This document shows positions 9,976 through 35,001 of a stretch of DNA of 35,253 nt, piece by piece. This DNA comes from Aestuariirhabdus sp. (lineage in GTDB: Bacteria; Pseudomonadota; Gammaproteobacteria; Pseudomonadales; Aestuariirhabdaceae): assembly GCA_030622755.1 (NCBI GenBank), contig JAUXFT010000015.1, positions 1-35,253 on the forward strand, in the 5' to 3' direction. The position numbers and the translations under genes were made by a program. Position 1 is the stretch's first letter. Every line of letters starts with the position of its first letter. The notes beneath the pieces were generated by a model, which had not been told where the DNA came from, did no database searches, and saw only the letters and a list, made by a program, of their open reading frames with translations.

Positions 9976-11076
9976 TTAGTATTCCGACTCTGAAACCTTT
10001 CCATGTTCCACGTGGAACATCTTTAATTTTACATCGTCTGACCATAAGCCAGCCAATGCTTGCTGTTCGATACAGGTAATAAATACCTGGCTTTCCATGT
10101 TGGCTAACTCTGTACACAAAGTTAGCCTGTGTTGATGATCCAGCTCTGCTGCCAAATCATCTATTAAAAACACACATTTTCGCCCGGATACCTGCTGATA
10201 CAATGCACCCTGGGCAAGCTTTAGGGCACAGACCAATAGTTTTTGTTGTCCGCGAGATAACCTGTCAGCCGCATTTACTCGTCCACACTTAACCCTTAGA
10301 TCGGCTCGATGAGGCCCGCTATGAGTAAAACCCGAAGCAAAATCTCTATCTAGTGCCGTATTTAAAACCTGATCATAGTTCGATTCTCTATCCCAACCGC
10401 GGTAATAAGAAAGGCGAATATCGGAATCCAGATCATTTAAAGCAAAGCGGCCGAGCACCTCATTGAATAAAGGAGCCAGGCGATCAAAATATTTCGAGCG
10501 AAACTTGTCAATCTCTAATGCATGAATAACTAAATACTTATCCCAGGTCACTAGCTCATTTGATGTTATTTTACCACGCCTAAGCAAATGATTGCGCTGT
10601 TTTAATACCCCCTGGTACTGCTTCCAAACGCTAAGGAAACGATGTTCCACGTGGAACACACCCCAATCAAGAAACTGCCTTCTTACTTTGGGGCCACCAG
10701 TCAGCAGTAAGAAGCTGTCAGGTGTAATCAACTGTAGCGGAAGTAATTCGGCAAGCGAAGAACTTGCTGTTGCCGTAGCGCCATCAATACGAATCTGACC
10801 ACCACCAGATAGATCACGCTTAACACCGACACGGTGAAACCTCTGTGAACCATCAACTTCCCCATAAACAGTGAAATCAGGACTACCATCACGAACTATG
10901 GGCTTTAGCCGAGCACTGCGAAACGAGCGTGCTAACCCTAAAATATGAACAGCTTCGAGAAGTGATGTTTTACCACTACCGTTTTCACCGATAATGATAT
11001 TGATACGAGAGGAGGGGGAAAGCTGCGCAACAGCAATGTTGCGCAAATTAGAAACCCGAAATCGGGAAATGGACAT
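9976..11076 (-). CDS. recF: DNA replication and repair protein RecF
   Basis: The 366-residue SMC-like ATPase loads RecA at single-strand gaps with RecO and RecR. Walker A is GENGSGKT (residues 30-37), the ABC signature is LSRGQQKLL (about residue 275), and Walker B is CVFLIDDLAAELD (about residue 305). The length is normal. Two parS palindromes lie in the coding region, at 10643-10658 and 10004-10019, and each is read as the peptide FHVEH (GVFHVEHRF and MFHVEHGK). The second is in the poorly conserved C-terminal tail. The gene is separated from dnaN by 15 bases and is co-transcribed with it. Confidence 0.96.
   Translation of the reverse strand: MSISRFRVSNLRNIAVAQLSPSSRINIIIGENGSGKTSLLEAVHILGLARSFRSARLKPIVRDGSPDFTVYGEVDGSQRFHRVGVKRDLSGGGQIRIDGATATASSSLAELLPLQLITPDSFLLLTGGPKVRRQFLDWGVFHVEHRFLSVWKQYQGVLKQRNHLLRRGKITSNELVTWDKYLVIHALEIDKFRSKYFDRLAPLFNEVLGRFALNDLDSDIRLSYYRGWDRESNYDQVLNTALDRDFASGFTHSGPHRADLRVKCGRVNAADRLSRGQQKLLVCALKLAQGALYQQVSGRKCVFLIDDLAAELDHQHRLTLCTELANMESQVFITCIEQQALAGLWSDDVKLKMFHVEHGKVSESEY
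10004..10019. promoter_or_regulatory. parS: parS centromere site 1
   Basis: TGTTCCACGTGGAACA is a perfect 16-bp palindrome and matches the bacterial chromosomal parS consensus, with the Pseudomonas-type core GTTCCACGTGGAAC. It extends by one further pair on each side (10003-10020). ParB, encoded at 22135, is expected to bind it, spread, and present the origin region to ParA. It is in the last codons of recF. Confidence 0.93.
10643..10658. promoter_or_regulatory. parS: parS centromere site 2
   Basis: This is a second exact TGTTCCACGTGGAACA, 639 bases from the first and inside the middle of recF. Two identical sites near the origin are typical of ParB loading regions. Both force the peptide FHVEH in RecF. 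Confidence 0.93.
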
Positions 11077-13841: not shown

Positions 13842-13870
13842 ATTCTACCCCCAAAAGCATGAGTTATCCA
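13842..13870 (-). promoter_or_regulatory. dnaA promoter overlapping a DnaA box
   Basis: On the minus strand TGGATA (13865-13870) and TAGAAT (13842-13847) are separated by 17 bases and lie about 45 bases before the GTG start of dnaA. The -35 is part of the perfect DnaA box at 13864-13872, so DnaA bound there would repress its own gene, as is known in other bacteria. Confidence 0.6.
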
Positions 13871-14100
13871 CAAGCTATTAAGATATTTATGGTGTGAAAA
13901 TAATAAAAAAAATACTTATTTATCAACAACTTACGAAAATACAGAAAAGGACGGCATGAAACAAATATTACGTGGATAACTTTGTGAATACATTTATAAC
14001 CGGTGATTAAAAACAGGCTGCACTACTCACTAGATATAGGGTAAATTAAAATCCGGATCCACAACATATAGACCCCTTATAAATACTGGCCTATAGGGGA
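13861..14100. other. oriC: dnaA-rpmH intergenic region with DnaA boxes, candidate oriC
   Basis: The 403-base gap between dnaA and rpmH holds a perfect DnaA box TTATCCACA (13864-13872, plus). It also holds one-mismatch boxes TTATCAACA (13920-13928, plus) and CGTGGATAA (13971-13979, minus) and weaker ones TGTGAATAC (13983-13991) and GGATCCACA (14055-14063). A very AT-rich stretch at about 13875-13925 could be the unwinding element. Pseudomonas origins lie in this interval, and the flanking genes diverge from it. A competing cluster exists upstream of mnmG, so the active origin is not settled here. Confidence 0.65.
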
Positions 14101-14109
14101 TAATTCCCA

Positions 14110-14138
14110 TTGACGAGGCACTACAAATTCCCTAAAAT
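14110..14138 (+). promoter_or_regulatory. rpmH promoter
   Basis: TTGACG (14110-14115) and TAAAAT (14133-14138) are separated by exactly 17 bases, each one base from consensus. They lie about 60 bases before the rpmH start, and no gene stands between. This is a strong sigma-70 candidate, as expected for a ribosomal protein gene. Confidence 0.82.
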
Positions 14139-14200
14139 TGCGCGTCCTTTGGTGGGGTTCGCCCACTGGGTAAATTCGCCAAGTTAACAGGTAACAGATC

Positions 14201-14335
14201 ATGAAAAGAACCTTTCAACCCAGCGTTCTGAAACGCAAGCGCACTCACGGTTTCCGTGCACGTATGGCCACCAAGAATGGACGCCTTGTAATCAAGCGTC
14301 GTCGGGCTAAAGGCCGTAAGCTACTGGCAGCCTGA
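14201..14335 (+). CDS. rpmH: 50S ribosomal protein L34
   Basis: This 44-residue basic protein begins [19 protein letters not shown] and ends AKGRKLLAA, which is the full L34 sequence pattern and length. It is a structural protein of the large ribosomal subunit. The start ATG at 14201 is 7 bases after an AACAGGTAAC stretch. It is followed six bases later by rnpA and is divergent from dnaA, the usual arrangement. Confidence 0.98.
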
Positions 14336-18060: not shown

Positions 18061-18745
18061 ACCATTACCAATGTTATTTAAACGTCCAGACTTCTGCTCG
18101 ATAAAATTGTAATACAGATACATCAGGCAATTATTGCTAAGACTATTTACTGCCTGGTATTTTCCTCCCCAGAAAAACCGAATCTTTTCTCCATGTTTCA
18201 TTTCAACATTAAAAATCAATTTCAGTCTTAGCAAATACTCCTGCGAAAAAAAACATGCACTGTAAATAAAATTTAAAAGCGAAATTACTCCCATATTTAG
18301 TTCTCTAAAAAAATCTCGTTTTAAAAAAATACAGGATGGTTTTTACAATAAAAAACGATTTATTAAGGCCACCTAAGCTCTGTGTGTAAAGGGTGTATCA
18401 ACTGAGCTCTAAAGGTGTGGATAAATACCCTGTGAATAAGTCGCTGGTTTATCCACACCTTACGCCGAGCCTATGCGCAGCTTACAGAAAGCTATTGTAC
18501 AGCCTTTGAAGTCAGATAAGCTTTTGATTTTAAAGGAGAATAATCACTTACCAACAGAATATGGCTTTACCATTAATAACAACAACAATAAGAACATATA
18601 TAAACATATATACTTTTCTATACTGATATAACTTATTTGCCTGTTTATAAAAAAGATTCTTTTTTACTCAGCAAGCCTTATACTTGTGCCCCTCAAAATG
18701 TCCTTATCTCAAATTCTTGGCAGCTTTCGCCAAAAGGTGGATTCT
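18061..18745. other. mnmE-mnmG intergenic region, second candidate replication origin
   Basis: This 685-base stretch has no convincing gene. From left to right it holds AT-rich DNA with no feature I recognise (18061-18375), then the DnaA-box cluster (18416-18457), then a mixed stretch to 18530. Very AT-rich sequence follows (18535-18670), including an 8-bp self-complementary element TAAAAAAG-ATT-CTTTTTTA (18648-18666). The order DnaA boxes, AT-rich DNA, mnmG start mirrors the E. coli oriC-gidA arrangement. It may instead be only an mnmG control region. Confidence 0.5.
18412..18461. repeat. 14-bp inverted repeat carrying two perfect DnaA boxes
   Basis: AAGGTGTGGATAAA (18412-18425) and TTTATCCACACCTT (18448-18461) are exact reverse complements with a 22-base spacer. 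Each arm contains a perfect DnaA box (18416-18424 minus; 18449-18457 plus). A third box with one mismatch, TGTGAATAA (18431-18439), is in the spacer. The box nearest the AT-rich stretch has the same orientation relative to mnmG as box R1 of the E. coli origin. Confidence 0.8.
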
Positions 18746-20641: not shown

Positions 20642-21291
20642 TGGGAGGTTTACAACATCTACAGCAACCACTACGCCGTGGAGCTGACCAACTTGAGCTG
20701 GACCTTAGTGAGAAACAGCAGCAACGGCTGCTGAGTTACTTACAGTTATTGGCAAAATGGAACCGTGCGTATAACTTGACCGCAGTTAGACAACCGGAAG
20801 ATATGCTACCCCGTCATTTACTGGATAGCCTGGTAGTAAGCCCTTACTTACAAGGCCAGTCTTTTCTTGATGTGGGTACTGGTCCGGGTCTGCCGGGAAT
20901 CCCTCTCGCAATCTGTTTTCCTGAAAGAGAATTCTCTTTACTGGATAGTAATGGAAAAAAGACACGCTTTTTACATCAAGCGGTTGTCGAGCTGGGGTTG
21001 AGCAATGTTCAGGTATACCAGAGTCGTATAGAGAGTTTTAACGACAAAACCTCATTTGATGGCATACTTTCCCGAGCATTTAGTACATTGCATGATATGG
21101 TGGAAGGCTGTTACCGATTATGCCGAGAGGGTGGCTATTTTCTTGCCATGAAAGGAGTGTACCCTCAACAGGAGCTGGATGATTTATCGAATACCTATCC
21201 ACAGCTGAAACAGGAAGCCGTGCACAAGTTGCAGGTCCCTGGCTGTGAAGGTGAACGACATCTGGTTATGCTCCATAAAGTACACCCCTAA
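20641..21291 (+). CDS. rsmG: 16S rRNA (guanine(527)-N(7))-methyltransferase RsmG
   Basis: The 216-residue SAM-dependent enzyme methylates G527 in 16S rRNA. The family signature WNRAYNLTAVR is at about residue 40. The SAM-binding loop FLDVGTGPGLPGIPLAI is at about residues 75-92, and LLDSNGKKTRFLHQ follows. The length matches the family. The ATG overlaps the mnmG stop (TAATG), so the two are coupled. The parA start is 20 bases after its stop. Confidence 0.96.
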   Translation: MGGLQHLQQPLRRGADQLELDLSEKQQQRLLSYLQLLAKWNRAYNLTAVRQPEDMLPRHLLDSLVVSPYLQGQSFLDVGTGPGLPGIPLAICFPEREFSLLDSNGKKTRFLHQAVVELGLSNVQVYQSRIESFNDKTSFDGILSRAFSTLHDMVEGCYRLCREGGYFLAMKGVYPQQELDDLSNTYPQLKQEAVHKLQVPGCEGERHLVMLHKVHP

Positions 21292-21310
21292 AACAACAGG
21301 ATTACAAAGC

Positions 21311-22099
21311 GTGGGTAAGATACTAGCGATAACCAACCAAAAGGGCGGAGTGGGTAAAACCACAACCTGTATAAATTTGGCAGCGTCTTTGGTGGCAACT
21401 AAACGAACCGTATTATTGGTTGATCTTGATCCGCAAGGAAACGCCACCATGGGCAGTGGTGTGGCCAAGAATGAGCTGGATTGGTCGGTTTATGATGTTT
21501 TAGTCGGTGAATGTGAAGTAGAAAAGGCCATTCAGCATTGCGACAATTCAGGCTACGACCTGTTACCTGCTAATGGTGATCTGACGGCTGCAGAAGTTCA
21601 GCTACTCGATCTCAGTTCGAAAGAGAAGCGTTTAGCCTATGCTCTAAGGCGAGTTCGTGATAATTATGATTTCGTACTCATCGATTGCCCGCCCTCGTTG
21701 AATATGCTGACGATCAATGCCTTGACCGCATCGAATGGTGTAATTATTCCGATGCAGTGCGAATATTATGCGTTAGAAGGTTTAAGCGCATTACTAGACA
21801 GTGTTCACAAGATTGAGCAGATTCTAAATCCCGGGCTCGGAATCGAAGGCTTGTTACGCACCATGTATGACCCTCGTAATAGCCTGACTAACGAAGTTTC
21901 TAGCCAGTTAACACAACATTTCGGCGATCAGGTGTACCGAACCGTTATTCCTCGGAATGTGCGTTTGGCGGAAGCGCCAAGCCATGGCCTCCCTGCCTTG
22001 ATTTATGATAAACAATCAAAGGGTGCTATTGCTTATTTGGCACTGGCTGGCGAATTAATAAGAAAACAAGAACAATCCGGGCAAAAAATTTCTGCTTAA
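21311..22099 (+). CDS. parA: Chromosome partitioning ATPase ParA (Soj)
   Basis: The 262-residue P-loop ATPase binds DNA non-specifically when bound to ATP and moves ParB-parS complexes apart. The deviant Walker A KGGVGKTT is at residues 11-18, VDLDPQGNATMGSG follows, and Walker B is FVLIDCPPSLNMLTINAL. The start is GTG 21311, preceded by AGGA at nine bases; the protein then begins GKILAITNQKGG and has the normal 262-residue length. A longer in-frame ORF from 21245 overlaps rsmG and is rejected. It has no N-terminal HTH, which is typical of chromosomal rather than plasmid ParA. Confidence 0.96.
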   Translation: MGKILAITNQKGGVGKTTTCINLAASLVATKRTVLLVDLDPQGNATMGSGVAKNELDWSVYDVLVGECEVEKAIQHCDNSGYDLLPANGDLTAAEVQLLDLSSKEKRLAYALRRVRDNYDFVLIDCPPSLNMLTINALTASNGVIIPMQCEYYALEGLSALLDSVHKIEQILNPGLGIEGLLRTMYDPRNSLTNEVSSQLTQHFGDQVYRTVIPRNVRLAEAPSHGLPALIYDKQSKGAIAYLALAGELIRKQEQSGQKISA

Positions 22100-22134
22100 T
22101 GTAATTGGCAAGACTAAGGATATTTGGGGGCGCT

Positions 22135-23007
22135 ATGGCGGCTAAAAAGAGAGGATTGGGTCGCGGCCTGGATGCATTATTGGCTAATAGCGCACCACAC
22201 GAGAGTAAAAGAACCGGTGACTCATACGAGGATAAAACCTTAACCGAGATTCCGGTGGAGTTCATACAGCGAGGAAAATACCAACCCCGCCGTGATATGC
22301 ACCCTGAAGCGCTTGATGACCTTGCCAATTCGATAAAAGTTCAGGGCGTGATGCAACCGATTATTATCCGTCCAATCGGCATTGATCGGTATGAGATTAT
22401 TGCGGGTGAGCGCCGTTGGCGAGCGACGCAGCGTGCCGGTCTGGATAAGATCCCTGTAATTATTCGTGATGTGCCGGATGAATCAGCGATCGCAATGTCG
22501 TTGATTGAAAATATTCAGCGTGAAGATCTGAATCCAATCGAAGAGGCAATGGCACTCCAGCGGCTTCAGGAAGAGTTTGAGTTGACTCAGCAGCAGGTTG
22601 CAGATGCCGTAGGCAAGTCCAGAACGACAATAACAAACCTGCTGCGCCTCATTAGCCTGAATGCAGAAGTTCGCATGATGTTAGAGCATGGCGACCTGGA
22701 AATGGGGCACGCTCGCGCAATGTTAACTCTTTCTGATGAGTTACAGCTCAAAGCCGCCCAAACTGTAGTGGCAAGATCATTATCGGTTCGCCAGACAGAA
22801 TCGATGATTCGTAAACTGCAGGATGAAAGTGAAAAACCTGTCCTTATAAAAATAGTAAATCCGGATATTCGTAATCTTCAGGATTCATTATCTGAGCGCC
22901 TTGGAGCGGCAGTAAAAATCGATCATGGCGCTAAAGGAAAAGGCAAATTAATGATCCAATACAATAGTCTTGATGAGCTTGACGGTATTTTGGCACATAT
23001 AAAATAG
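22135..23007 (+). CDS. parB: Chromosome partitioning protein ParB (Spo0J)
   Basis: The 290-residue CTP-dependent clamp binds parS and spreads along DNA. It begins with KKRGLGRGLDALL, the ParA-contacting tail. The CTP-binding part has QPIIIRP and GERRWRATQRAGL, and ENIQREDLNPIEEA follows. The helix-turn-helix is TQQQVADAVGKSRTTITNLLRL, and the C-terminal dimer domain closes the protein. I chose ATG 22135 because GGGGG lies just upstream; the TTG at 22105 gives an unsupported extension. Its probable targets are the two parS sites in recF. Confidence 0.96.
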   Translation: MAAKKRGLGRGLDALLANSAPHESKRTGDSYEDKTLTEIPVEFIQRGKYQPRRDMHPEALDDLANSIKVQGVMQPIIIRPIGIDRYEIIAGERRWRATQRAGLDKIPVIIRDVPDESAIAMSLIENIQREDLNPIEEAMALQRLQEEFELTQQQVADAVGKSRTTITNLLRLISLNAEVRMMLEHGDLEMGHARAMLTLSDELQLKAAQTVVARSLSVRQTESMIRKLQDESEKPVLIKIVNPDIRNLQDSLSERLGAAVKIDHGAKGKGKLMIQYNSLDELDGILAHIK

Positions 23008-34032: not shown

Positions 34033-35001
34033 TTACGCAGCAAGCAAGTCCACTCGCTGCCCCATAAATAATTCATTCGGTGACTTGCCACCTCTCGTGG
34101 CTCGCGGTCTATTGTTGAGGCGATTCATCACGTGCTCGATTTGCTCTTCAGTTACTTCACTGAAGTCTGACCCTTTAGGAAAATACTGCCGGATCAGTCC
34201 GTTGGTATTTTCATTTATGCCTCTCTCCCATGACGAGTAAGGGTGGGCAAAATAAATATCTGCCCCTAACCCCTCTGCAATCATTTCATGCCTGGCAAAT
34301 TCAAGACCATTATCCAGGGTAATAGTTTTCACTCTGTCCTTCAGGTGCTGCATGGATTTGACCGCCGCTTCTGCTAGCAAATCTGCCTGCTTCCCTGTTA
34401 ACAAAGCAATCACGGTATACAGCGTTTTACGCTCAACCATTGTTAACAGTGCGCTTTTTCGTCCTTTACCTATGACAGTGTCGCCTTCCCAATCACCAAT
34501 ACGGTTGCCTCTATCAACAACTGCTGGCCTATCATCAATGCCCACTCGATTCTTGATTTGCCCTCGTCGATCGTAGCTACCATAGCGCTTTCGGTATGGT
34601 TTTGAGGCTACCCTCAGGTGCTTATATAAATCGCCACCACTCGCCTTGTCGGCATAAATCAGTTGATACACCGTTTCGTGATGTAGCAATAAGCCTTTAT
34701 GCCTGGCTAGATAGTCCACAACCTGCTGAGGGCTTAGCTCCTGGCGAATCAGGGTCTCAATAAATCCTCTGATGTCACTGGTTATTTTACGGGCCTTATG
34801 AGCTTCTCTGCGTCGAGTGCTGGACAATTTCTGAGCTTGCTGTGGCCTGTATCCTCGTTGCCCTTTGTTCCTTTTGAGTTCACGGCTAATGGTAGAGGGG
34901 CTTCGCCCCACCAGACCTGCGATCTTTAGCTGTGAATATCCGGCTATCTTTAGTACGTAAATTTGGTATCGTTCGTTCTCGGTCAGCTGGCTGTAGTTCA
35001 T
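34033..35001 (-). CDS. IS30 family transposase
   Basis: The 322-residue DDE transposase has an N-terminal helix-turn-helix (about residues 3-45, ENERYQIYVLKIAGYSQ and GRSPSTISRELKRNKG), which binds the inverted repeats. The catalytic residues are the Asp in GDWEGDTVIGKG (about residue 175), the Asp in TLDNGLEFARHE (about residue 230) and the Glu in WERGINENTNGLIRQYFP (about residue 262). The frame is intact and full length, so the element could be active. It starts at ATG 35001 and reads towards glmS. Confidence 0.96.
   Translation of the reverse strand: MNYSQLTENERYQIYVLKIAGYSQLKIAGLVGRSPSTISRELKRNKGQRGYRPQQAQKLSSTRRREAHKARKITSDIRGFIETLIRQELSPQQVVDYLARHKGLLLHHETVYQLIYADKASGGDLYKHLRVASKPYRKRYGSYDRRGQIKNRVGIDDRPAVVDRGNRIGDWEGDTVIGKGRKSALLTMVERKTLYTVIALLTGKQADLLAEAAVKSMQHLKDRVKTITLDNGLEFARHEMIAEGLGADIYFAHPYSSWERGINENTNGLIRQYFPKGSDFSEVTEEQIEHVMNRLNNRPRATRGGKSPNELFMGQRVDLLAA

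Follow-up and report, generated by a model that had tools for sequence, protein, structure and literature searches.

A pair of parS-type palindromes within the recF gene of Aestuariirhabdus sp. has counterparts at the homologous codons of most gammaproteobacterial recF genes examined

The recF gene of Aestuariirhabdus sp. contains two copies of a 16-bp palindrome, TGTTCCACGTGGAACA, which are almost certainly chromosomal parS sites near the replication origin; this genome probably has no other full parS sites. They were found in a 35,253 nt stretch of DNA (contig JAUXFT010000015.1, positions 1 to 35,253), the whole of which is referred to here as the window. Corresponding sites occur at homologous codons in most of the Gammaproteobacteria examined, so that selection on DNA has fixed the codons of RecF there, and also part of its amino acids at both sites.

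The gene (9976..11076, minus strand) specifies a protein of 366 aa that scores 360.6 bits against TIGR00611 (cut-off 172). As the initial annotation had stated, the two palindromes are identical, lie 639 bp apart (start to start) and share one reading frame, and both their coordinates and the ORF agree with this. The C-terminal site is at 10004..10019 and the internal site at 10643..10658, both are read on the minus strand as xTG TTC CAC GTG GAA CAx, and RecF carries FHVEH twice, in the contexts GVFHVEHRF (F141-H145) and KMFHVEHGK (F354-H358). The 16-mer fits the parS consensus and is identical to parS2 and parS3 of Pseudomonas aeruginosa, as given in an excerpt of PMC4368675. In the draft genome (3,411,162 bases in 238 contigs, 87% complete), no place other than the two recF copies came within two mismatches of the palindrome, and at three mismatches there were 12 further places, compared to eight for a reversed-pattern control. 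A chance origin of the pair was rejected, as none of 100 shuffles gave two matches even when three mismatches to the canonical parS were allowed, and the genome scan also speaks against it. This genome is probably unusual in that the recF pair are the only parS sites seen in it, in a draft that is 87% complete.

The window is a standard origin region. The genes gyrB, recF, dnaN, dnaA and parB were named by matches to NCBIfam profiles, and those we take to be glyQ and glyS (on the gyrB-recF-dnaN-dnaA side) and rpmH, yidC, mnmE, mnmG, rsmG, parA and the atp operon (on the parB side) were assigned their names from the ORFs. The intergenic stretch between dnaA and rpmH (13861..14201), about 3.2-3.9 kb from the palindromes, is a candidate origin region and has an exact DnaA-box-like sequence, TTATCCACA, at 13864. 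The cumulative GC skew reaches its minimum at about 15-17 kb, and the palindromes are about 3-8 kb from the likely origin. The few copies detected in this 87% complete genome are clustered beside dnaA and the turn in GC skew, as expected of parS. Three DnaA-box-like sequences at 18416-18457, between mnmE and mnmG, mark a second possible place for the origin. At the end of the contig, a gene for an IS30-family transposase (34033-35001; NF033563, 317.5 bits) adjoins glmS.

The expected binding protein is specified by parB (22105..23007, plus strand; TIGR00180, 197.4 bits), which has the CTP motif GERRWR and lies 11.4 kb from the nearer palindrome, in line with the distance of about 11.5 kb first proposed. 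The gene for the partner ATPase, parA (21245..22099, plus strand), has ParA-family matches and a KGGVGKTT motif, reached none of the NCBIfam cut-offs, and probably starts a little inside the listed ORF. The window ParB aligns to Caulobacter ParB (6t1f, E 2e-55) and carries R where Caulobacter ParB has residue 173 and G where it has residue 201, both being described as absolutely conserved among extant ParB orthologs (PMC7383237, in excerpt). The genome therefore carries a cognate ParB with the specificity residues of the parS type. Noc was considered and rejected, both as the binder and in the form of its binding site. The protein has R/G rather than Q173/R201 and its 220 bits fall below the Noc cut-off of 315, while the palindromes are of the parS type, the half-site bound by Noc being marked by A at position 1 and by C at position 6, according to the section of the source available.

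The distribution of the sites was examined in 258 recF genes of Gammaproteobacteria, comprising 30 from order-level relatives (this genome included), 28 from a class-wide draw, 80 named loci and 120 further regions. The class-wide genes were among the matches listed for the 224 genomes of the draw with recF, low-scoring recFs being left out, and the named loci are the best 80 of 435 and are rich in Pseudomonas. RecF proteins were aligned and the homologous 16-mer was read without seeking a palindrome, the tail site being placed by a protein-only score; the two variable positions were treated as Y and R when matches were scored. With at most one mismatch, the internal site is present in 194 of the 258 genes and the C-terminal site in 200, the mismatch counts being bimodal; the second number includes a weak one-mismatch form, TGTTCCGCGTGGAACA, with a broken core, in three Enterobacterales; recFs cut by contig ends (e.g. 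L048) were scored as missing the tail site. Both sites are found in 176 genes, one in 42 and neither in 40, so at least one is present in 218/258, and where both occur they are 612-693 bp apart. Among the 178 recFs outside the best-80 set, both sites are carried by some member of 106 of the 137 family codes, and any site by 126/137. When 274 class-draw genomes were scanned separately, 226 contained the 15-mer TGTTYCACGTGRAAC, and the reversed control pattern was matched in four.

Several genomes depart from the common arrangement. In two loci (L018 and L028) the 5' half of recF holds an additional parS-like site, which makes three with the usual pair. L032 has lost the internal site but not the tail site, and just beyond the recF stop codon, 60 bp from the tail site, there is a second full site. 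One class-draw genome (G152) contains the 15-mer twelve times in the forward direction and never in reverse, where one to three is the rule. In three Pseudomonas loci (L081, L083 and L084) the internal GTG has become GTC, accompanied in two by a change of GAA to GAG, with FHVEP retained; these are recent losses of the internal site, the tail site being intact.

Studies of other species suggest how such sites would act. ParB dimers would bind each 16-mer and close into CTP-bound clamps that slide out over the flanking DNA, and ParA would move the ParB complex and hence the newly copied origin; binding, clamp loading and segregation are all attributed to the present sites by analogy. Since any single one of parS1-4 suffices in P. 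aeruginosa (PMC4368675, in the excerpt available), such a role does not fully explain the strict retention of both recF sites. One speculative proposal, which we consider rather unlikely, is that Gammaproteobacteria inherited the pair from their common ancestor as the original centromere and have kept it at two homologous places in recF because two ParB-loading sites spaced by about 620 bp within the dnaA-dnaN-recF-gyrB operon offer something that a lone site in another place cannot, for example a link between ParB loading and the transcription or replication of the operon. It is less probable still that the sites are retained mainly because ParB dampens the dnaN-recF-gyrB operon at the level of transcription, and not for segregation. 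In P. aeruginosa, an excess of ParB lowers expression of PA0004 (gyrB) and its neighbours, which the authors link to parS1 and parS2 in recF; at the native level of ParB, however, the genes beside these intragenic sites are unchanged in parB-null and parS-null strains (both from excerpts of PMC5521831).

The fate of the sites in genomes that have lost ParB was followed in 37 named genomes. A ParB similar to that of the window (E up to 1e-20) was found in 0/16 Enterobacterales and Orbales genomes and in 20 of the 21 others, the exception being a Vibrionales draft. The 15-mer, the presence of which was checked in 26 of the 37, is absent from all 16 ParB-less genomes and present in 10/10 of the ParB-bearing ones. 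In the former, the internal position reads FHNEP or similar, and the tail is often MFRVEHG or MFRVEQG, that is, a palindrome in which CGC or CGT has taken the place of CAC. Conversely, 11 of 12 genomes with neither site in recF retain some ParB match (two of them weak), and the position in recF is therefore not obligatory. Exact sites occur elsewhere in three of these 12, in one case (G027) about 10 kb from recF, and Marinomonas and Marinobacterium retain the motif outside recF. It follows that the recF sites can be replaced, and that they decay in the absence of ParB. Palindromes can serve many proteins, and these might be bound by a factor other than ParB (e.g. another CACGTG-binding protein) or act in RNA, but this is very improbable given that the sequence is that of a verified P. 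aeruginosa parS (PMC4368675, as excerpted), that the sites are missing from 16/16 genomes without ParB, and that the motif is found at other places in some genomes whose recF lacks it (in G027, close to recF). As expected of chromosomal parS, the sites are conserved by selection at the level of DNA and are lost together with ParB.

That selection is evident in the codons. Where RecF has FHV[EK], this is spelled CAC-GTG-RAA in 190 of 199 internal sites and 194 of 205 tail sites, where the codon usage of the same genes would give 13.2 and 14.2, and the palindrome is present with at most one mismatch in 192/199 and 194/205, respectively. The codon preceding Phe ends in G in every case (199/199 internal and 205/205 tail, 404 in total), the residues before Phe being mostly V, L and M, with NTG codons. 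The final codon begins with CA in most RecFs, and, as the 16-mer does not include its third base, its residue alternates between H and Q. The initial annotation had proposed to check, in related RecFs, if FHVEH is confined to genes with the palindrome, and it is: all 76 internal and all 96 tail occurrences coincide with a palindrome (at most one mismatch), and RecFs lacking it read FHNEP, FHSDP, FYLDK and the like (tails with a protein score under 6 were left out of the residue counts, here and for palindrome-less sites).

The symmetry of the palindrome also pairs the synonymous third base of the Phe codon with the first base of the Glu or Lys codon, and the two covary. At the internal site there are 23 TTT-Lys, 1 TTC-Lys, 53 TTT-Glu and 122 TTC-Glu (Fisher p 4e-10, odds ratio 53), and at the tail 35, 8, 57 and 105, respectively (p 7e-8, odds ratio 8), compared to a background odds ratio of 2.2 (p 0.02) at the remaining F-x-x-[EK] of these genes. 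Base composition alone was rejected as the cause, since within GC strata the odds ratios persist (87 internal, 7.2 tail) above the background of 2.2. A model of correlated rates is favoured on the RecF tree (LR 32.0 internal and 24.1 tail, 4 df), the tree being a FastTree of RecF itself with the site columns excluded and several of the fitted rates being at extreme values. A conservative test of independent pairs (starred branches) did not reach significance (median p 0.25 and 0.625) and had too few informative pairs. The covariation of a synonymous codon with Glu/Lys indicates selection on DNA. The asymmetric forms, however, differ as DNA only in the orientation of one and the same site, and the Glu form outnumbers the Lys form by 53:1 internally and 57:8 at the tail; as the DNA site is identical, the scarcity of the Lys form indicates selection on the protein too.

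RecF has preferences of its own at these places. In the 59 genes where the internal palindrome is absent (at least three mismatches), Phe is found in 59/59 and His in 44/59, with Val in only 4/59, and at the tail F-x-V is frequent without a site, also outside the class (F-x-V..G). Since these residues persist without the palindrome, the sites lie where RecF had already half spelled them. The view that the palindrome forces FHVEH upon the protein thus holds for the codons, which are locked, and only in part for the residues, as RecF itself supplies F and H internally and F-x-V at the tail. Similarly, one site is indeed in the middle of the protein and the other in its tail, but the tail, thought to be variable, is not so at the site: F354 is invariant (59/59 aligned RecFs) and belongs to an ordered strand. 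In the predicted structure (mean pLDDT 96.6, with a mean of 97 for the 10-residue block of F354), the internal site falls where helix 129-143 ends, and the tail site is in and just past the C-terminal beta strand 351-357, both being predicted as ordered. Even so, the notion that FHVEH is conserved for RecF function, the palindrome merely following from the peptide, is hardly tenable, for although the retained F and H, the common F-x-V..G and the avoidance of Lys would fit it, it is contradicted by the codon locking, by FHVEH never being met without a palindrome and by the NNG codon that always precedes Phe.

The recF sites are a clean natural example of a single stretch of DNA under two codes, in which selection on DNA and on protein can be separated. 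They provide a simple sequence test for parS-dependent segregation in Gammaproteobacteria, with Enterobacterales as a natural loss experiment, and a deletion or swap of recF in these bacteria also takes out centromere sites.

Chromosomal parS of Caulobacter and Bacillus belong to the same 16-bp motif class and are bound by ParB with Arg173 and Gly201 (PMC7383237, in excerpt), but among 20 recF loci examined in the other classes of this phylum, a small sample, none had a site. The closest known system is that of P. aeruginosa, where, in the sections of the papers available, parS1 and parS2 are placed in recF, about 4 kb from oriC (PMC5521831, PMC3909081), and ParB occupies parS1-4 in vivo by ChIP-seq (PMC5098823). 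The same gene is used and parS2 is the same 16-mer, while parS1 differs in the last base. In Pseudomonas loci L064-L071, the internal site ends in ...GGAACC and the tail site, 630 bp from it, in ...GGAACA, from which parS1 is probably the internal site and parS2 the tail site. The internal site of Aestuariirhabdus is perfect, and its last residue is His where the P. aeruginosa counterpart spells Pro. According to the same partial sources, parAB of P. aeruginosa is about 7 kb away on the other side of oriC, and there are further strong sites, parS3 and parS4, outside recF, of which none was seen in the present genome (87% complete). In the published text available, class-wide conservation and codon evidence were not found, only statements on P. 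aeruginosa, and the survey of Livny (2007) could already note the conservation. The location of parS in recF was already known in P. aeruginosa; its breadth and the codon-level proof are new here.
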